A stretch of DNA of 51,749 nt from Hyphomicrobiales bacterium (GTDB taxonomy: Bacteria > Pseudomonadota > Alphaproteobacteria > Rhizobiales > Xanthobacteraceae), in the NCBI GenBank assembly GCA_017305595.1, contig JAFKKL010000009.1:1-51749 (forward strand), given 5' to 3'. Of this stretch, positions 42,051 to 51,749 are shown in pieces. Under the pieces are notes generated by a model that searched no databases, was not told where the DNA came from, and saw only the letters and a program-made list of their open reading frames with translations. How positions within the stretch are numbered: the first letter of the stretch is position 1; every line of letters starts with the position of its first letter. The position numbers and the translations under genes are program-made.

Positions 42051-42142
42051 TCGTCATTGCGAGGAGCGTGAGCGACGAAGCAATCCAGCCCTTGCTTCGT
42101 CGCACTCTCGATTACTTCGCGGAACCTGTGCTCGGACGGCGC
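42051..42142 (+). repeat. Dispersed repeat, family B, copy 1
   Basis: A segment beginning TCGTCATTGCGAGGAGCGTG that matches, with a few differences, the reverse complement of 49290-49380. It holds an internal dyad around ACGAAGCAATCCAG...CTTGCTTCGT. A partial third arm (GCTCGCAATGACGAT) follows to 42174. Such elements are common between genes in this bacterial group. Confidence 0.8.
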
Positions 42143-43306: not shown

Positions 43307-44356
43307 ATGATGCGCACATCACATCGTTTTACCATCCTCGCAGCCGTGGTCGGCTTGCTCGCGGTTTTGTTTGCCGCACCGGCCACGGCACGCCGCGTCA
43401 CTGACTCCGCCGACCGCACCGTAGAGGTCCCCGACACCATCTCACGGGTATTCGCCGCCGGTCCGCCGGCGTCGATCCTGCTTTACACGCTAGCACCGCA
43501 GGACATGGTCGGTTGGGTTCGCACGCCACACGCGGCGGCAAAGCCCTTCCTGCTGCCGTCGGTACAAGCGTTGCCCGAGCTTGGTCGCCTGACCGGACGT
43601 GGCGACACTTTGAACCTCGAGCGATTGCTCGCGGCAAAACCCGACGTCATCATCGATTTCGGCACGATCAACGACACCTATCGCTCGCTGGCCGACCGCG
43701 TTCAGGCGCAGACCGGCATTCCCTATCTGCTGATAGACGGCCGCTTTCAGAATACGCCTGCCGCCCTGCGGCTGCTGGCCGATATTCTGGGCGTCAAGGA
43801 GCGCGGCGAAAAACTGGCACGGGCAGCGGAGGAGATTTTCGCGCAGGTCGACGACGTCCTCGCGCAGGTTCCACAGGACAAGCGCCCGCGGGTTTACCTC
43901 GCGCGAGGCCCGGAAGGGTTGGAGTCGGGTTCGCGCGGCTCGATCAATACCGAAATCATCGAGCGCGCCGGCGCCATCAATGTCGTCGAGGGTCTTCGCG
44001 AGAAAGGCGGCATCGTCAATGTGTCACCGGAGCAACTGATCGCCTGGGCGCCCGACACCGTCATCACGCTCGATCCGACGTTCCGTCGCAGCGTCGCTGA
44101 CAAGCCGGCGTGGGCACCGGTGCCGGCGGTTCGCGAGCGGCGGGTTTTTCTCGCGCCCAATCTGCCCTATGGCTTCATCGACGCGCCACCCTCGCTTAAT
44201 CGCCTGATCGGGCTGACGTGGCTGCTGCATACGCTTTATCCCGACAAAGCCCCCGGCAAGCTTCGCGATCAGATTCGCGCGTTCTATCATCTATTCTATC
44301 AGGTCGAGCCGAGCGACGCCGATCTCGACCGTCTGCTGGATCATATGGGAGGCTGA
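43307..44356 (+). CDS. FecB/MolA-type ABC transporter periplasmic binding protein
   Basis: 349-residue exported protein of the class-III (helical-backbone) binding family. Signal peptide about 1-28 (ILAAVVGLLAVLFAAPATA). Core segments are [75 protein letters not shown] and FIDAPPSLNRLIGLTWL. The family imports siderophores, haem, cobalamin or, in MolA proteins, molybdate. The molbindin gene immediately upstream favours molybdate/tungstate; this is inference. Starts at 43307 or 43310. Confidence 0.88.
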   Translation: MMRTSHRFTILAAVVGLLAVLFAAPATARRVTDSADRTVEVPDTISRVFAAGPPASILLYTLAPQDMVGWVRTPHAAAKPFLLPSVQALPELGRLTGRGDTLNLERLLAAKPDVIIDFGTINDTYRSLADRVQAQTGIPYLLIDGRFQNTPAALRLLADILGVKERGEKLARAAEEIFAQVDDVLAQVPQDKRPRVYLARGPEGLESGSRGSINTEIIERAGAINVVEGLREKGGIVNVSPEQLIAWAPDTVITLDPTFRRSVADKPAWAPVPAVRERRVFLAPNLPYGFIDAPPSLNRLIGLTWLLHTLYPDKAPGKLRDQIRAFYHLFYQVEPSDADLDRLLDHMGG

Positions 44357-44365
44357 CGTTCGGCC

Positions 44366-45370
44366 TTGCGCACCGCAACCATCCTTTTTCTGCTGCTGGC
44401 GCTGCTGATCGCCGTGACGGTGATCGCATCGGGCATCGGTCCCTATGCGATTTCACCGCCAGAGGTGGCGCGCGCTCTTGTCCAACGATTGTTCGGCGGC
44501 ACTAACAACGGCACGGTCGAAACCGTCATCTTCAATATTCGGCTTCCGCGCGTAGCCGCGGCCGGCATCGTCGGCGCCGCGCTCGCCGCGGCTGGCGCCG
44601 CCTATCAAAGCCTGTTCCGTAATCCGCTGGTGTCGCCAGACATTCTCGGCGTCTCCACTGGCGCGGGGCTCGGTGCCGTCACCGGAATCTTGCTCGGCCT
44701 CCCGGTGACGGCGATCCAACTGATGGGATTCACCGGCGGCCTGATCACGGTCCTCATCGTCGTAGTAATTGCGCGGGCCCTGCGCGGCGGCGGCGATGTA
44801 CTGGTGCTGGTTCTCGCCGGCATCGTGATCGGTGCGCTCGCGGGCGCGGCCATCTCGCTGGTGAAAGTGCTGGCCGACCCCTACGATCAACTTCCGGCAA
44901 TCACGTTCTGGCTGCTCGGCAGCCTGGCCGGCATCAAGGTGCATGACGTCGCTACTACTATTCCGATCGTACTACTCGGCCTCGCGCCTTTGATTCTGTT
45001 GCGCTGGCGCATCGGCGTGCTGTCGCTCGGCGACGATGAGGCTCGCGCGCTCGGGGTGAATGTGTCCCGACTGCGCGCCATCGTCATCGTCGCCGCGACG
45101 CTGGTGACCGCGAGCGTGGTGGCGATCTCCGGCGTGATCGGCTGGGTCGGCCTGATGGTCCCGCATATGGCGCGACTACTGGTCGGCCCGCGCTTCGATC
45201 GATTACTGCCGGCCTCAATCCTGCTCGGTGCAGCGTTCCTGATCGCGGTTGATACGTTGGCGCGCTCCGCCGCGCGTATCGAAATTCCGCTCGGTGTACT
45301 CACCGCCGTGATCGGCGGTCCGCTCTTCGTCTGGTTGCTGGCACACAATCGTCGAAGGATGCTGCCGTGA
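44366..45370 (+). CDS. FecCD/BtuC-type ABC transporter permease
   Basis: 334-residue inner-membrane permease with about ten membrane segments, from TTG at 44366 (GGAGG is 13 bases upstream, so the start is not certain). Family signatures are NIRLPRVAAAGIVGAALAAA, GAAYQSLFRNPLVSPDILGV, the LGVNVSRLRAIVIVAATLVT loop and ISGVIGWVGLMVPHMARLLV with a terminal TAVIGGPLFVWLLAHNRRR. It forms the channel for the substrate captured by the preceding binding protein, and its stop overlaps the ATPase start (GTGA). Confidence 0.93.
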   Translation: MRTATILFLLLALLIAVTVIASGIGPYAISPPEVARALVQRLFGGTNNGTVETVIFNIRLPRVAAAGIVGAALAAAGAAYQSLFRNPLVSPDILGVSTGAGLGAVTGILLGLPVTAIQLMGFTGGLITVLIVVVIARALRGGGDVLVLVLAGIVIGALAGAAISLVKVLADPYDQLPAITFWLLGSLAGIKVHDVATTIPIVLLGLAPLILLRWRIGVLSLGDDEARALGVNVSRLRAIVIVAATLVTASVVAISGVIGWVGLMVPHMARLLVGPRFDRLLPASILLGAAFLIAVDTLARSAARIEIPLGVLTAVIGGPLFVWLLAHNRRRMLP

Positions 45371-46131
45371 CATTGTTGCGCGCGCATGACCTCTCGATCG
45401 GCTACGGGCGCACTGTCATCGCGCGCGGCATCGATCTGCCCATTGAGGCCGGCGGTGTCACCTGCCTGCTCGGCCCCAACGGCATCGGCAAGACCACGCT
45501 GTTCAAGACGCTGCTCGGCCTCATTCCACCGCTGTCCGGCAGGGTCGAAATCGAGAGCAACGATCTCACGTCACTTGATCAGCAGACGGTCGCGCGCCAC
45601 ATCGCTTATGTGCCGCAGGCGCAAGCAACCGAATTCTCCTATTCCGTGCTCGATCTGGTGGTGATGGGGCGCACCGCGCATCTCGGCGCCTTCGCCGCGC
45701 CGGGAGCGAACGACTACGCCATCGCGATGACCGCATTGGAGCGGCTCGGCATTGCCGAGTTGGCGGATCGCGATTCCACGCGCATCTCGGGCGGACAGCG
45801 CCAACTCGCGCTGATCGCGCGCGCACTGGCGCAACAGGCCCGCGTCATCGTGATGGACGAGCCGACCGCAAGCCTCGACCTCGGCAATCGCATTCTGGTG
45901 CTGGAGACGATCCGCAGCCTCTCGGCCGACAATCTCGCCGTTGTGCTCTCGACCCATGAGCCGGAACACGCCTTTGTCGTCGCCGACCGCGTCGCGATCT
46001 TGGCGGCGAACGGCTTTCTCACCGGACCGGTCGAGAACGTGATGACCTCAGACGAATTGTCTCGGCTTTATCGTGTGGGGCTGGTGGTCGAGAAGACACC
46101 GTCCGGACGATCTGTCGTCGGTCCCGCCTGA
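45367..46131 (+). CDS. FecE/MolC-type ABC transporter ATPase
   Basis: 254-residue ATPase from GTG at 45367. Walker A LLGPNGIGKTTLFKTLLGL, Q-loop YVPQAQATEFSYSVLDLVVM, signature RISGGQRQLALIARALA, Walker B VIVMDEPTASLDLGN and switch His VVLSTHEPEHAF are all intact. It powers the permease encoded just upstream. Together with the binding protein and molbindin it makes a compact transport-and-storage unit. No terminator is seen after it; 108 bases later the NsrR-like palindrome begins. Confidence 0.94.
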   Translation: MTLLRAHDLSIGYGRTVIARGIDLPIEAGGVTCLLGPNGIGKTTLFKTLLGLIPPLSGRVEIESNDLTSLDQQTVARHIAYVPQAQATEFSYSVLDLVVMGRTAHLGAFAAPGANDYAIAMTALERLGIAELADRDSTRISGGQRQLALIARALAQQARVIVMDEPTASLDLGNRILVLETIRSLSADNLAVVLSTHEPEHAFVVADRVAILAANGFLTGPVENVMTSDELSRLYRVGLVVEKTPSGRSVVGPA

Positions 46132-46239: not shown

Positions 46240-46262
46240 AAGATGTATTGACAATATATCTT
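46240..46262. promoter_or_regulatory. 23-bp palindrome resembling an NsrR/Rrf2 operator
   Basis: Left half AAGATGTATTG, central A, right half CAATATATCTT: 10 of 11 positions on each side are complementary. The layout and ends match the NsrR consensus (GATGYATTT-N-AAATRCATC) with about three differences. It holds a TTGACA hexamer that may serve as a -35 element. It lies 112 bases before the first gene of the DUF2249 set. Confidence 0.5.
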
Positions 46263-46373
46263 TATAGAGCAACACTCGTTGCACATGCGGCGCCGATGTA
46301 TCGGTCGATCAAGCGGCCGGCAGACGCCGCAAGCCATGCTGACAACAGCCCGCGACGGGCGACAGGAGCCACC

Positions 46374-46634
46374 ATGTGTCAGACAACTGAAGACACCGAC
46401 GTCACCGAGATCGATGTGCGCAGCCTTATTCCGGCGCAACGCCACGCCAAGATTTTCCAGCTTGTCGGCGAACTCGCGGCCGGCGACTCGTTCGTTCTGG
46501 TGAACGATCACGATCCCAAGCCGCTCTACTACCAACTCGAGGCCGAGCATCCGCACGAATTCTCCTGGACCTATCTGGAGAAGGGACCGGCGGTCTGGAA
46601 AGTCGAGATCGGCAAGCAGTTCAAGGTCGCCTGA
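46374..46634 (+). CDS. DUF2249 domain protein, single domain
   Basis: 86-residue cytoplasmic protein from ATG at 46374, preceded by CAGGAG. The family core is IDVRSLIPAQRHAKIFQLVG, SFVLVNDHDPKPLYYQLEAE and FSWTYLEKGPAVWKVEIGK; NDHDPKPLYYQ is the hallmark. DUF2249 proteins (SirA/TusA-like fold) are commonly found beside genes for denitrification and nitrosative stress, but no biochemical role is established to my knowledge. It is the first gene after the NsrR-like palindrome. An in-frame start at 46248 would put the start inside the palindrome and is discounted. Confidence 0.9.
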   Translation: MCQTTEDTDVTEIDVRSLIPAQRHAKIFQLVGELAAGDSFVLVNDHDPKPLYYQLEAEHPHEFSWTYLEKGPAVWKVEIGKQFKVA

Positions 46635-46770
46635 CCGCTGACGCTGATCCGCGCGCATTCGATATGCCGCACAATGCTCCCCGTCGGCAAACCGGTCTCT
46701 CGCAGGAAACGGTTTGCCGGCCGCGCCGGCGGTCGATCCGCCGGCGCCTTTTCCCGAAAGGAAGATCGCC

Positions 46771-48129
46771 GTGGTCGGCGTCGCTCTATCCCGCTGGACG
46801 ATGTCTTACTTCGCAACGGCCGTGCTGGCGCTAATTGCTGCCGAGGGATTGATGCTGGCGGGCATCGGGTATCCGCACGCCGCCATGGCCGCACCCGCCT
46901 CCTTGCTATTGGTGCATCTCGTCGCGATCGGCTGGCTTAGCCTGCTGATGTGCGGCGCGCTTTTCCAGTTCGTGCCGGTGCTTGTGAACCGGCCACTCCA
47001 TAGCAACACGTTGCCACTGCCGACGCTGATCCTGCTGATCGCCGGCCTGGCCGCGCTGCTGCTCGGCTTCGCTCAAATGGGCGGAACGATCCAGACGCCA
47101 TTCGGGTTCTTCCCGGCCGCCGCGATCCTTCTCGGCTCGGGCTTCGTGCTCGTGCTGTGGAATCTCGGCCGCACGCTATGGGCGGCGCGACCGCTGCCGC
47201 TGCCGGCGCGGTTCGTTGTGGTCGGGCTGTGCAGTCTCGCAGCAACCGTATTCCTCGGCATCATCTTCGCGCTGGTGCTGGGCGGCGTCGCCACCAAACC
47301 GCATCTGCTCGACGTTACGGCGCTCGGCCTGCCGATCCACGTGATCGCCGGACTTGGCGGTTGGCTCACCTTCACCGCGTTTGGCGTCAGTTACCGTCTG
47401 CTCGCAATGTTCATGCTGGCGCCCGAACTGGAAGGCCGCACCACGCGCGGCGCGCTGTATGTCGGGAGCACCGCACTCGCGGTCGCCATCGTCGGCGGCA
47501 TGGCGGCGATCTGCACGTCAACCAATGTGATATGGCCTATCGGCGCCGGTGGCATCCTCGGCCTGCTGGCGCTCGCGCTTTACGGTGGCGACATCCAGCA
47601 TCTTTATCGCGCGCGCAAGCGGCGTGTCATCGAACTCAACAGCCGCATGGCGGGCGTGGCGCTGGCAAATCTGGCCGCGACCATCCTGCTCGGTATCGCC
47701 CTGCTGCTCGCAGGCCGCTTCAATGGTCATGTCGGCGTCATCGTGTTTCTGGTTGCCTTCGCTTGGCTCTCGGGTTTCGGCCTCGCAAAACTCTACAAGA
47801 TCGTCGCCTTCCTCACCTGGCTCGAATGTTACGGTCCGGTGCTCGGCAAGACGGCGACGCCGCGCGTGCAGGATCTCGTCACCGAACCGCGCGCACAAAA
47901 ATGGTTCGCGTTGTATTTCGTTGCCGTGTGGATCGCCGCACTCGCATTGCTGTTTGCGATGCCGTTGCTGTTGTTCCAGGTCGGCGTCGGCGCGATGGGG
48001 CTCGCGACCATCGGCATCGGCATCCAACTGATGCGAACCCGCCGCCTCGCCAACGTCGCGCCCGCGCTGCGTCTGCCGAAGGGTACACAGCCGCCGCATC
48101 TTCTGCATTCATCGGTCCAGCCAAGCTGA
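46771..48129 (+). CDS. Polytopic membrane protein of a nitrosative-stress-type cluster (CcoN-like)
   Basis: 452 residues with about twelve membrane segments. GTG at 46771 is chosen because AAGGA lies eight bases before it; ATG at 46801 is an alternative. Two His in membrane helices stand out: LLLVHLVAIGWLSLLMCGAL (about residue 50) and LGLPIHVIAGLGGWLTFTAF (about 190). The pattern recalls subunit I of cbb3-type oxidases and relatives, though most haem and copper ligands of a true oxidase or NO reductase are missing, so catalysis is doubtful. The C-terminal 40 residues are basic and cytoplasmic. It lies between two DUF2249 genes and is likely a membrane partner or sensor for them. Confidence 0.7.
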   Translation: MVGVALSRWTMSYFATAVLALIAAEGLMLAGIGYPHAAMAAPASLLLVHLVAIGWLSLLMCGALFQFVPVLVNRPLHSNTLPLPTLILLIAGLAALLLGFAQMGGTIQTPFGFFPAAAILLGSGFVLVLWNLGRTLWAARPLPLPARFVVVGLCSLAATVFLGIIFALVLGGVATKPHLLDVTALGLPIHVIAGLGGWLTFTAFGVSYRLLAMFMLAPELEGRTTRGALYVGSTALAVAIVGGMAAICTSTNVIWPIGAGGILGLLALALYGGDIQHLYRARKRRVIELNSRMAGVALANLAATILLGIALLLAGRFNGHVGVIVFLVAFAWLSGFGLAKLYKIVAFLTWLECYGPVLGKTATPRVQDLVTEPRAQKWFALYFVAVWIAALALLFAMPLLLFQVGVGAMGLATIGIGIQLMRTRRLANVAPALRLPKGTQPPHLLHSSVQPS

Positions 48130-48140
48130 AGGAGACACGC

Positions 48141-48671
48141 ATGACCACATCATTCATGGACGTCGATGTCCGTCCGACCCTCCGCGCCGGCGGCGAACCG
48201 TTCGGCGAGATCATGGCGGCCATCGCCAAGTTGCAACCTGGTCAGGGCCTGCGGCTACTGGCCACCTTCGAGCCGGTGCCGCTGTTCCATGTGCTGGGCT
48301 CGAAGGGCTTCAGTCACAAGGCGAAAGAGATCGGCGGCGGCGATTGGGAGGTGCTGTTTTCGCCCGCAGCCGCAGCCACACCAGCTGATGCGACTCCGGC
48401 GAAACCCGCGAGCGACACCAGCGCATGGCCGTCACCCGTGCAGGAGATGGACAACCGCGACCTCGACCCGCCGGAGCCGATGGTGCGCATCCTCGCAGCG
48501 ACCGAAGCGATGGCGAACGGCGAAGTACTCTCGGCGCTGCTGTGCCGCGAACCGATGTTCCTACTGCCTGAACTGGCCAAGCGCGGCCACGCCTGGCGCG
48601 GTGCCTTCGAGCCGGACGGCAAGACCTACAAGATTCTCATTCGCGTCGGCGCGGCCAAGGAAGCCGCGTAG
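48141..48671 (+). CDS. DUF2249 protein with two domains
   Basis: 176 residues from ATG at 48141, preceded by AAGGAG. The first DUF2249 domain is about 1-75 (DVRPTLRAGGEPFGEIMAAI, GLRLLATFEPVPLFHVLGSK, GGDWEVLFSP). A Pro/Ala/Ser-rich linker follows, then a second domain (about 105-172) with LDPPEPMVRILAATEAMANG, LLCREPMFLLPELAKRGHAW and YKILIRVG. The hallmark loop is changed from the single-domain NDHDPKP to FEPVPLF and CREPMFL, so the two classes likely have different partners. It is 11 bases downstream of the membrane protein gene. Confidence 0.85.
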   Translation: MTTSFMDVDVRPTLRAGGEPFGEIMAAIAKLQPGQGLRLLATFEPVPLFHVLGSKGFSHKAKEIGGGDWEVLFSPAAAATPADATPAKPASDTSAWPSPVQEMDNRDLDPPEPMVRILAATEAMANGEVLSALLCREPMFLLPELAKRGHAWRGAFEPDGKTYKILIRVGAAKEAA

Positions 48672-48683
48672 CAAGGAGGCCGC

Positions 48684-49004
48684 ATGACTCCCGAAGCCAG
48701 CGAAGCTTTTGCCGGTCAGATCAAGGAGGCGCTGCGCCTCGTGATCGATCCCGAGCTTGGCTACAACATCGTCGATCTCGGGCTGGTTTACGATATCAAC
48801 GTCGAGGACGGCGGCGTGGTGCGCGTCGCGATGACGACGACGACGCGCGGCTGTCCCGCGACCGGCTATCTCAAGGACGGTGCGCGCGACGCCGCATGGA
48901 GCGTACCCTCCGTCGAGTTCGTCGACATCGCCCTCACCTACGATCCGCCGTGGACGCCGGACATGATGACGGACGATGCGAAGGTTCATTTGGGAATCGT
49001 CTGA
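48684..49004 (+). CDS. DUF59/MIP18-family metal-sulfur cluster assembly factor
   Basis: 106-residue SufT/PaaD-like protein from ATG at 48684, preceded by AAGGAGG. Family features are LRLVIDPELGYNIVDLGLVY, VRVAMTTTTRGCPATGYLKD with the functional Cys57, and VDIALTYDPPWTPDMMTDDA. Such proteins help assemble or deliver Fe-S clusters to client proteins. Its place in a putative nitric-oxide-responsive set fits repair of NO-damaged clusters; that link is inference. The stop overlaps the next start (TGATG). Confidence 0.9.
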   Translation: MTPEASEAFAGQIKEALRLVIDPELGYNIVDLGLVYDINVEDGGVVRVAMTTTTRGCPATGYLKDGARDAAWSVPSVEFVDIALTYDPPWTPDMMTDDAKVHLGIV

Positions 49005-49225
49005 TGACAATGCAGACGACGACACCCACGCGCGCGAAATTAGCAGATACCACGCCGTTGGTCGGCGTACTGCTGACGAGCCTCGAAGCGCTCGCTGCCG
49101 CCGGCAAAGCCGATGCAGCGTGCCGCCTCGCCGGAAAAGCCTGCGCCGAATTGCGACATAGTGATCCCGCGGCGTGGCAACGCTTCAATGTCTTTCTGCA
49201 CCGAATTATCAAGCATGTTTCTTGA
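49004..49225 (+). CDS. Unknown 73-residue helical protein
   Basis: Starts in the TGATG overlap with the DUF59 gene (a second Met is at 49010). I do not recognise a family. The predicted fold is three short helices: LVGVLLTSLEALAAAGKADA, ACRLAGKACAELRHSDPAAW and QRFNVFLHRIIKHV. Two Cys lie 8 residues apart in the middle and could bind a metal or cluster, though spacing is unlike known motifs. Close coupling with the DUF59 gene argues for a shared role, perhaps as its partner. Confidence 0.75.
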   Translation: MTMQTTTPTRAKLADTTPLVGVLLTSLEALAAAGKADAACRLAGKACAELRHSDPAAWQRFNVFLHRIIKHVS

Positions 49226-49289
49226 AATCACCCACACTATGCATCGACGGCAATAGCACCGTCAGTGCGAACACTCGGATCGGCATTCC

Positions 49290-49380
49290 GCGCCGTCCGA
49301 GCACAGGCTCCGCGAAGCAATCGAGAAGGCCACAAGCAAAGACTGGATTGCTTCGTCGCTAACGCTCCTCGCAATGACGA
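49290..49380 (-). repeat. Dispersed repeat, family B, copy 2 (inverted)
   Basis: The minus strand begins TCGTCATTGCGAGGAGCGTT and aligns along its length with 42051-42142. The two copies are in opposite orientation and flank about 7.1 kb that holds the phasin, molbdate-type transporter and DUF2249 genes. It separates the 73-residue gene from the DUF1971 cupin gene. Confidence 0.8.
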
Positions 49381-49415
49381 TGATCTAATCTTAAATTCCA
49401 CAGGACCATCACCGT

Positions 49416-49721
49416 ATGTCGACGATCCCTTCCGAAATGCCGCCCGGCTTTACTGCTTACGGACGCTCGCCGGATTTCTCATCCGACAACCTGCCGGCCA
49501 AGCTGCAATCGGCGCACAGCACCAAGGCTGGCACCTGGGGGCTGCTGCATGTGCTCGAAGGCGTCGTGCATTACCGGCTGGAAGCGCCGCACCAGGGCGA
49601 GAAGATCATCCATGCCGGCGAGACCGTGGTGATCGAATCGCAGGTGCCGCACCGTGTCGAATTCATCGAGCCTGGCCGCATGTTCGTCGAGTTCTATCGG
49701 CTGGCAGAAACCAGCGAATAA
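49416..49721 (+). CDS. DUF1971 cupin-like protein
   Basis: 101-residue single-domain protein. FTAYGRSPDFSSDNLPAKLQ, SAHSTKAGTWGLLHVLEGVV, HYRLEAPHQGEKIIHAGETV and VIESQVPHRVEFIEPGRMFV match DUF1971, a family related to the N-terminal cupin-like region of some TehB proteins. His residues in HSTKAG, LHVLEG and VPHRVEF could bind a metal. DUF1971 genes often sit near denitrification or nitrosative-stress genes, which fits the preceding set. A family B repeat lies between it and the 73-residue gene, so co-transcription is uncertain. Confidence 0.85.
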   Translation: MSTIPSEMPPGFTAYGRSPDFSSDNLPAKLQSAHSTKAGTWGLLHVLEGVVHYRLEAPHQGEKIIHAGETVVIESQVPHRVEFIEPGRMFVEFYRLAETSE

Positions 49722-49727
49722 AAGACC

Positions 49728-51749
49728 TCAGCGCGCCGTCGCCTCAAGCGCGGCCCGCGCCAGGTTGGCCTCGTACTGCCCGCGCGCCGACGAATATTGC
49801 TTCGGCCATGGCTGCCCGGCGAAGCCGATCTTCGATGCCTCATGCATCACGAATGACGGATCGGCGAGATGCGGCCGCGCGATGGCGCAGAGATCCGCGC
49901 GTCCCGCCGCGATGATCGAATTGGCGTGGTCAGCTTCCGAGATCGCGCCGACGGCGATGGTTGCGACATGTTCCTCGTTGCGGATCTTGTCGGAAAACGG
50001 CGTTTGATAAAGCCGCCCATAAATCGGCTTCTGATCGTTCACCACCTGTCCGGACGAGCAATCGATCAGATCGGCGCCCGCGTCCTTGAACATGCGGGCG
50101 AAGATCGCGGCATCCTCCGGTGTGTTGCCGCCCTCAAACCAGTCGTGCGCGGAAAGCCGTACCGACATCGGCTTCGACGCCGGCCATACGGCCCGCACTG
50201 CGCGAAACACCTCCAGCGGAAACCGCGCGCGGTTCTCATGGCTGCCGCCATAGTCATCGTCTCGAATGTTGGTCAGCGGCGACAGGAAACTCGACAACAG
50301 ATAGCCGTGCGCGGCATGCAGTTCGAGAATATCGAAGCCGATCCGCGCCGCACGCTCGGTCGCCGCGACAAAATCCGTTAGCACGCGGTCCATGTCGGCG
50401 CGCGTCATCGCGCGCGGCACGTCGGAGTGCGACAGATACGGCAGCGCCGACGCCGAGATCAGCGGCCAGTTGCCTTGCGCCAGCGGCTCATCGGCGCCTT
50501 CCCACGCCACCCGGGTCGAGCCCTTGCGCCCGGCATGGCCGAGCTGAATGCCGATCTTGGCCGGCGTGTGCCGATGCACGTAATCGACAATACGTTGCCA
50601 CGCCTTCTCCTGCGCATCATTCCACAGACCGAGGCAGCCCGGCGTGATGCGTGCGTCCGGCGAGGTACAGGTCATCTCGCCGAAGATCAGCGCCGCGCCA
50701 CCGTCGGCTCGCGCGCCGAGATGCACGAGATGAAAATCGTTCGGCACGCCGTCAGCGGCGGAATACATCGCCATGGGCGACACCATGATGCGGTTGTGCA
50801 AATGCAGATCGCGCATCCTGTAGGGCGTGAACATCGGCGGCGGCGGACTGCCGTTGGATGACACCGCGACGCCGGCGCGCTCCGCGAACCAGCGCTCATA
50901 ATTTTCCAGCCACGCCTTGTCGCGCAGCCGCAGATTTTCGTGGCTGATGCGCTGCGAGCGCGTCAGCATCGAATACATGAACTGCTCCGGCTCCAGCGTA
51001 TCGGCGTAGCGTCGGCCGACCACCTCGAACCATTCCATGGCGTTGCGCGCCGCGTTCTGGATGCGGGCGACGTCGACGCGCCGCACCTCCTCATAGGCTT
51101 CCAGCACGGCCGGGATGTTTTCGCGCCCGTGGCCGATACGATTGAACTGGTTGGTCAGCTCGATCGCGTCGTCGATGGCGAGTTTGGTGCCCGAGCCGAT
51201 GGCGAAATGCGCGGTATGGGCGCTGTCGCCCATCAAAACGACATGGCTGTTGCCGTTGAAATGGCTCCATTTCTCGCAGATCAGCCGGCCGAAATTCAGC
51301 CAGGCCGAGCCGCGCAGATGGCGCGCATTGCTCATCAGCGAATGGCCGCCGAGGGTGTCGGCGAACAGCTTTTCGCAGAACGCGATGGACTGGTCCTGGT
51401 CCATCTTGTCGATGCCGTGCGCCTTGAACACTTCGTCGGTCGTCTCGACGATGAAGGTCGAGGTCTTGTCGTCGAAGCGGTAGATGTGCGCCTGGAACCA
51501 GCCGTGCTCGGTCCGCTGGAAGTCGAAGGTGAAGGCGTCGAAGCGCTTCTCGGTGCCGAGCCAGATGAAACGGTTCGGCCGCATCAGCATGTCGGGCTTG
51601 AAGATTTCCGCGTATTTCGCCCGGATGCGGGAATTGACGCCGTCGGAGGAGATGATGAGGTCGGCCTCGGGGAATTCGCCGTCGTCCTGCACCTCGCGCT
51701 CGAACACCAGTTCCACGCCGAGTTCGAGGCAGCGCTCCTGCAAGATGTT
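49728..51749 (-). CDS. Fused FAD monooxygenase/OYE protein (salicylyl-CoA 5-hydroxylase or 2-aminobenzoyl-CoA monooxygenase/reductase type), partial
   Basis: The reading frame is open to the right edge, so the N-terminus is missing; about 670 residues are visible. The N-terminal part is an aromatic FAD monooxygenase: [20 protein letters not shown] and [20 protein letters not shown], then [14 protein letters not shown]. From about visible residue 305 it continues as an Old Yellow Enzyme domain: [64 protein letters not shown] and [10 protein letters not shown]. Such fusions act on salicylyl-CoA or 2-aminobenzoyl-CoA in aerobic aromatic degradation. Which substrate applies cannot be decided here. 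Confidence 0.9.

Follow-up and report, generated by a model that had tools for sequence, protein, structure and literature searches.

A conserved, apparently nitric oxide-controlled gene cassette pairs an oxidase-fold membrane protein with DUF2249 and DUF59 proteins

What might a compact operon do when it appears to be controlled by nitric oxide (NO) and yet contains no recognisable NO reductase? The question is raised by a locus of a Hyphomicrobiales bacterium (Xanthobacteraceae; assembly GCA_017305595.1), whose draft genome measures 4.67 Mb and is 94% complete, so that single gene absences are not certain. The locus lies in the window, i.e., the whole 51,749-nucleotide (nt) stretch of contig JAFKKL010000009.1 that was analysed. 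There, a first-pass annotation had recognised an NsrR-like palindrome followed by genes for a DUF2249 protein, a membrane protein (hereafter MEM), a double DUF2249 protein, a DUF59 cluster-assembly factor, a protein of 73 amino acids (aa) and a DUF1971 cupin, and had suggested that the set repairs or senses damage to metal-sulfur centers under nitrosative stress. Sequence inspection, Pfam and pattern searches confirmed the position and order of the palindrome, of the five genes that make up the cassette and of the cupin gene, with all genes on the forward strand. The core of that description proved to be mostly right and its interpretation is partly supported: MEM and two of its neighbors form a conserved unit, and on balance we favor the view that the cassette is an NO-induced protection and repair operon.

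Conservation was assessed on 81 loci, namely the best 80 of 282 MEM relatives from a scan of GTDB genomes plus the window, and the presence of genes around MEM was scored by tblastn. Counts from this sample lean towards close relatives and include some near-duplicate genomes (e.g., L061/L062/L097 and L091/L092). The gene for the double DUF2249 protein (48141-48671) followed the MEM gene (46771-48129) in 80/81 loci, the DUF59 gene (48684-49004) was present in 78/81, and all three occurred together in 78/81. In the three loci with a missing gene (L072, L105, and L111), the contig ends within ~290 bases of the position where that gene is expected. A single-domain DUF2249 gene (46374-46634) was found in 58 loci, two of which (L063 and L101) had a match only away from the cassette, and relatives of the 73-aa protein (49004-49225) were found in 52, but the DUF1971 cupin gene (49416-49721) was present in only 15. 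Based on these counts, MEM, the double DUF2249 protein and DUF59 constitute a genuine conserved cassette core, the single DUF2249 and 73-aa proteins are frequent members, and the cupin is an optional one. The gene-neighborhood survey that had been proposed with the first-pass annotation thus returned co-conservation and not its absence. The cupin, listed there as an operon member, is indeed present, but it is not a fixed member and it lies beyond a dispersed repeat that separates it from the rest of the cassette. Judging by record titles, hosts of MEM relatives include genera that we take to be alpha-, beta- and gammaproteobacteria, and the closest titled relatives among the best 80 of 282 are metagenome-assembled genomes of Hyphomicrobiales and Xanthobacteraceae. 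Successive genes of the cassette are separated by 136 nt, 11 nt and 12 nt, followed by a 1-nt overlap (TGATG) and then by 190 nt ahead of the DUF1971 gene. MEM most likely starts at GTG 46771 rather than at TTG 46714, since both the homology among relatives and a ribosome-binding-like AAGGA box begin there.

The operator-like palindrome, AAGATGTAT-N5-ATATATCTT (46240-46262), lies upstream of the single DUF2249 gene. A pattern derived from it gave one match in the window and zero in 100 shuffles, and with a looser pattern this site was the sole mismatch-free match genome-wide. Promoter tests were performed on 79 loci (L050 and L080 have no upstream sequence and were left out) with dinucleotide shuffles as controls. 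Results showed that 46/79 loci carry AGATRYAT-N5-ATRYATCT with 0-2 mismatches in the ~330 bases preceding the cassette (15 with no mismatch, 16 with one, and 15 with two), vs. 1/3950 shuffled sequences at two mismatches and none with fewer. The palindrome also agrees with the published NsrR consensus, gATGyAT-N5-ATrCATc (Rodionov et al., PMC1274295), and the NsrR-like reading of the site therefore stands. Its spacer is not free, as TTGACA occupies the center in 41/46 sites; in the window this -35 box is found at 46248-46253 (forward strand). A -10-like hexamer follows 17 nt past the -35 box, with A at position 2 in 43/46 sites and T at position 6 in 38/46, making AACACT (46271-46276, forward strand) the probable -10 box of the window, and a generic consensus promoter scan reported no promoter, this box included. 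Since the operator is centered on the -35 box, a bound repressor would cover it. This promoter layout is well supported, and the repressor would presumably be of the NsrR type.

Loci lacking the palindrome frequently carried another kind of site. An FNR/NnrR-type box, TTG-N8-CAA, was present in the last 200 bases upstream in 17/33 palindrome-less loci (1.3 expected) vs. 2/46 palindrome loci (2.2 expected), and several of these boxes fit the NnrR consensus TTGcg-N4-cgCAA. Because the same cassette stands under two unrelated NO-responsive site types, the upstream sequences make a strong, though indirect, case that its role is linked to NO. An NsrR-like Rrf2 gene was present in 21/81 stretches, 19 of which are palindrome loci, and in 14 loci such a gene was divergent from the cassette within ~0.9 kb. 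The genome of the window has one close Rrf2 gene, which is NsrR-like, encodes a cysteine cluster, and is located on another contig (G000:C170). Just upstream of it is a 3-mismatch version of the palindrome, and it is divergent from a gene that was read by eye as a truncated haemoglobin, without a family call. A further palindrome with two mismatches to the operator (G000:C359:4313-4335) precedes a gene resembling short-chain dehydrogenases, close to which lies a ferredoxin-like gene (names by eye); the site possibly marks another regulon member.

The 452-aa MEM is the largest protein of the cassette. With E values up to 1 allowed, it matched none of the Pfam families (hence neither COX1, PF00115, nor NnrS, PF05940), and it matched no NCBIfam family; a sequence search of the PDB with its profile likewise gave no match at E up to 1. 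Identification by sequence with CcoN (HHalign 6.5%) or with NnrS (HHalign probability 0.2%) was rejected. The predicted model of MEM (predicted local distance difference test score 88.8) contains 12 long helices, as the first-pass annotation had counted, and aligns with CcoN (3mk7) at Z 30.5 with a root-mean-square deviation (rmsd) of 3.6 A over 389 residues, and with the cytochrome c-type NO reductase (cNOR) at Z 29.6. Heme-copper oxidases and NO reductases (NORs) share six metal-ligand histidines distributed across helices 2, 6, 7 and 10, including a pair in helix 7 and another in helix 10. Conservation was read from alignments of 76 MEM, 78 double DUF2249, 78 DUF59, 40 single DUF2249, 13 73-aa and 13 DUF1971 sequences, short or stop-containing ones having been dropped. 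The sole invariant histidines of MEM are H49 in helix 2 and H190 in helix 6; helix 7 has no conserved histidine, and helix 10 has none that is invariant and none conserved in its core. The six-histidine ligand set of oxidases and NORs is therefore not found in MEM. As only two invariant histidines remain, the model suggests an oxidase-fold protein from which neither standard oxidase nor standard NO-reductase activity is to be expected. MEM had initially been described as a CcoN-like partner; the likeness of fold is borne out, but "partner" is not; MEM is itself a CcoN-fold homologue with two histidines. A more distant MEM-like set from five genera (L030-L034; HHalign 98.7% to MEM), which represents a second uncharacterised family of membrane proteins of the oxidase-like kind, has a DUF2249 neighbor in 5/5 loci, as do 5/26 NnrS loci, all five from one genus. 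Since DUF2249 also adjoins these genes, its pairing with oxidase-like membrane proteins looks old.

The soluble partners are more readily classified. The 86-aa single-domain DUF2249 protein (PF10006, 102.5 bits) has invariant R23-H24 and N44-D-H-D-P-K-P motifs among 40 sequences, including two invariant histidines. The 176-aa double DUF2249 protein matched Pfam with 120.2 bits in two stretches, the second of which is also recognized as TusA. In structural comparisons, this second domain was closest to YeeD of the YeeE-YeeD transporter (Z 11.9), followed by TusA (3lvj_C; Z 10.4, rmsd 2.1, 74 residues). The sulfurtransferase cysteine of TusA is part of a CPxP motif. In the double DUF2249 protein, D109 is followed by invariant P110-P111-E112-P113 (DPPEP), with no conserved cysteine at that position, and the predicted domain would thus be TusA-folded but lack the sulfurtransferase cysteine. 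The DUF59 (FeS_assembly_P) protein matched PF01883 with 66 bits (cut-off 23.5) and TIGR02945 with 94.8 bits, which is below cut-off; it has an invariant Cys57, retains DPE and GCP motifs, and has solved relatives, e.g., TM0487. The DUF59 protein of 14 loci is a natural fusion with the N-terminal domain of Nfu (Nfu_N), a call made by Pfam on one representative; residues 1-88 of this representative match each of the 14 members with E below 1e-29. The DUF59/Nfu partner points to iron-sulfur (Fe-S) clusters rather than copper. A role in the repair or sensing of metal-sulfur centers, as originally suggested, fits these proteins, and the fusions may be taken as indirect support for it. The 73-aa protein has no significant family (best TPR_14, E 0.033), and its C40, C47 and H66 are conserved in at least 12/13 sequences. 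The DUF1971 cupin (PF09313, 64 bits; cut-off 23.1) has invariant H34, H45 and H79 (13 sequences).

The cassette occurs in a denitrification context. Recurrent neighbors among the 81 loci, with each cluster named from one scanned representative, were Crp/Fnr regulators (25), Rrf2 regulators (21), a CcoI-type copper ATPase cluster (14), pseudoazurin (11), nos genes (11), HemN (10), DUF1858 (10), CcoN (9) and NarG (6). MEM matched 114 plasmid records. On two annotated Sinorhizobium plasmids, including pSymA of S. meliloti, the cassette lies between norECBQD-hemN and nnrS-nirK-nnrR-azurin-nap (nor and nnrR names partly read from product lines), and the annotation there calls MEM a "hypothetical protein" and DUF59 a "metal-sulfur cluster assembly factor." The genome of the window itself has a nirK gene cut by a contig end, nnrS, and a cytochrome c-cupredoxin-NirK-like fusion; searches of this 94% complete genome detected no NOR, no RIC and no full-length flavohaemoglobin (Hmp). 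None of the matches was placed on the contig of the window, in agreement with the earlier statement that the window lacks nirK, norB, hmp and nnrS. As side observations on nirK, a 587-aa protein of this genome (G000:C9:14425-15333; L151:1911-3674, reverse strand) matches the NirK model in its C-terminal part and by eye starts with cytochrome c and cupredoxin, and long NirK-type frames resembling it occur in other genomes of the family. In G135, a DUF2249-DUF59 pair without MEM (L152:714-1430, reverse strand) lies near nirK, and the same genome has two MEM copies elsewhere.

The association with nirK was quantified in 396 genomes of the order, all at least 95% complete except that of the window. 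Up to 4 candidates per genome were scored in the initial screen; weak nirK matches (G406, G439, G475, and G477) were dropped, and the partial nirK of the window's genome was counted as present. MEM was found in 27/396 genomes. Canonical nirK was present in 21/27 genomes with MEM vs. 69/369 without (P = 3.9e-10). The association persisted at the level of genera (12/16 with MEM vs. 30/119 without; P = 1.6e-4), one genus (g60) having MEM and nirK in different genomes; descent is not fully corrected for in these tests. The link of MEM to NOR was weaker (12/27 vs. 68/369; P = 0.0045).

The cassette probably protects or repairs iron-sulfur or iron centers under NO, by analogy with NnrS and YtfE. NnrS is an NO-responsive membrane protein controlled by NsrR, NorR or NnrR, and it is described as a guard of the iron pool against dinitrosyl iron complexes that leaves NO itself in place (PMC9246220, PMC11526790). 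The nnrS gene is encoded beside the cassette in Sinorhizobium, but NnrS has five conserved histidines (8 sequences, i.e., those of 26 loci with a long open frame and the required motif) and MEM has two, with no PF05940 match. YtfE/RIC would resemble the cassette in function, as a factor of Fe-S protection under NsrR control (PMC11526790), but the protein types are unrelated. An operon divergent from nsrR in Sphingopyxis granuli TFA, SGRAN_3394-3396, was the most NO-induced there, 142-229-fold with DETA-NO (PMC6472365); its three-gene layout equals that of the Sphingobium locus L103, and it is thus a candidate counterpart of the cassette. As to protein type, YtfE/RIC is a di-iron hemerythrin-like protein. 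With CcoN and NorB, MEM shares twelve helices and a fold, but its invariant histidines are limited to one each in helices 2 and 6, and it has no COX1 match. A further comparison is with the three-unit heme-copper oxidase (HCO)-homology proteins (HCOH), which Pei et al. in 2014 reportedly described as 12-helix proteins with two conserved histidines, perhaps a single heme, and a denitrification context. From that description, MEM would share with them the helix number and the two conserved histidines, as well as the lack of an oxidase site, and may belong to that family. For the soluble proteins, a precedent is COG4309, which we take to be DUF2249. COG4309 was predicted in NsrR and NnrR regulons beside norB or nor genes (Rodionov et al., 2005; PMC1274295). 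The partner in those operons is norB, however, whereas the cassette has MEM and DUF59 and no norB. Among the literature matches listed, seen as titles and abstract beginnings and with subscription papers mostly outside, the cassette was not described as a unit.

Several observations weigh against protection and repair under NO. Canonical nirK was missing from 6/27 MEM genomes in the order survey, and 16/79 loci had neither the palindrome nor an FNR/NnrR-type box by the tests used. The Rrf2 regulator of the window's genome scored 139.3 bits with RirA vs. 137.5 with NsrR, both below cut-off, so that the two families are not separated. DUF59 proteins serve further pathways too, e.g., PaaD, and the authors of the S. 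granuli study tentatively linked SGRAN_3394-3396 to protein traffic across the membrane, not to Fe-S chemistry (PMC6472365).

The strong nirK association could also mean that the cassette serves to assemble or mature co-induced copper or heme enzymes, such as NirK or the cbb3 oxidase. MEM is structurally most like CcoN, and cbb3-type genes (CcoN, CcoO, CcoP or the CcoI-like ATPase cluster) were present in 19/81 neighborhoods. However, MEM occurs in six genomes without canonical nirK, these cbb3-type clusters were missing from 62/81 neighborhoods (many stretches ending at contig ends), and the DUF59/Nfu partner suggests Fe-S clusters over copper; we therefore consider a maturation module rather unlikely. 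Alternatively, the cassette could serve in nitrogen-oxide sensing or regulation, in the manner of Thermus DrpAB, whose DUF2249 protein DrpA is needed for nitrate-dependent control (PMC6282519); haloarchaeal DUF2249 genes, moreover, are induced in denitrification (PMC11218638). Against this, its NsrR- and NnrR-type sites suggest that the cassette is itself under the control of known sensors, Pfam found no DNA-binding or signalling domain in it, and a DUF59 factor would be superfluous for sensing, which makes such a role distinctly unlikely.

That MEM and its DUF2249 partners form a non-canonical NO reductase or NO sink where NorB is absent is suggested by the nearness of the MEM fold to cNOR and by the failure to detect NOR in the window's genome. 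In a hand count of the family sample, moreover, MEM was present in 10/12 nirK-positive genomes without cNOR vs. 3/8 with cNOR, one of the ten (G038) having another NOR-type gene and the eight excluding two MEM-less genomes that have cNOR and a nirK divided between two frames. This hint was not upheld in the 396 genomes, where MEM was equally frequent among nirK-positive genomes with NOR (11/45) and without (10/45; P = 1.0), and MEM as a simple NO-reductase substitute was rejected. Since conserved histidines are also missing from helix 7 and from the helix 10 core of the 76 MEM sequences, we regard NO reduction or trapping by MEM as very unlikely. Finally, a sulfur-compound transporter composed of MEM and TusA-fold proteins has a precedent in the thiosulfate transporter YeeE-YeeD, in which a membrane protein has a TusA-like partner and whose YeeD is the closest fold to the second DUF2249 domain, but it is highly improbable given DPPEP in place of the sulfurtransferase cysteine and the oxidase fold of MEM (YeeE not being among the structures compared with MEM).

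For an NO-induced protection and repair operon, the following course of events can be envisaged. Without NO, an NsrR-like Fe-S repressor would sit on the palindrome and cover the -35 box; NO would damage the cluster of the repressor, freeing the -35 box and allowing transcription of the operon. The same job would fall to an NnrR/FNR-type activator in many genomes of the Bradyrhizobium and rhizobium type. With one histidine each in helices 2 and 6 but no conserved counterpart of the helix 7 Cu-B pair or of the helix 10 histidine pair, MEM probably holds one b-type heme or another metal and would move electrons or iron rather than reduce NO or O2. The TusA-fold DUF2249 proteins might dock to MEM as soluble partners, while the DUF59 factor, fused to Nfu_N in some genomes, could pass Fe-S units to damaged or new proteins. 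A more specific version, in which a single-heme MEM takes electrons from the quinone pool and hands them through cysteine-less TusA-fold relays to a carrier of the DUF59/Nfu type, by which clusters damaged by NO are rebuilt, is speculative, and we think it unlikely.

The surroundings of the cassette in the window have features of their own. A dispersed repeat with the core GCTTCGTCGCT-NN-CGCTCCTCGCAATGACG separates the cupin gene from that of the 73-aa protein (49350-49379, forward strand), and its second copy is at 42052-42081 (reverse strand). Directly upstream of the cassette and on the same strand (43307-46131) are genes for an iron-siderophore/B12-type ABC transporter (Peripla_BP_2, FecCD, and ABC ATPase), and genes of equal lengths occupy that position in L039 and L040. 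Downstream, a single open frame on the reverse strand (49728-51743) runs to the window end and combines an FAD_binding_3 part with an old-yellow-enzyme domain (Oxidored_FMN), i.e., a two-enzyme fusion. A generic scan of the locus gave no convincing terminator, with 2 terminator-like sites vs. 2.8 expected.

The cassette ties three unsolved protein types to NO stress, namely an oxidase-homologous membrane protein without the oxidase site, DUF2249, and the stand-alone DUF59. It also places a conserved, apparently NO-controlled operon, whose largest protein belongs to no Pfam or NCBIfam family, within the denitrification region of Sinorhizobium. S. meliloti consequently offers a concrete test bed for the function of DUF2249, a question that has been standing since COG4309 was flagged in 2005. 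Were the membrane-coupled Fe-S repair machine to prove true, the oxidase fold would have gained a new job, and DUF2249 a defined biochemical function.

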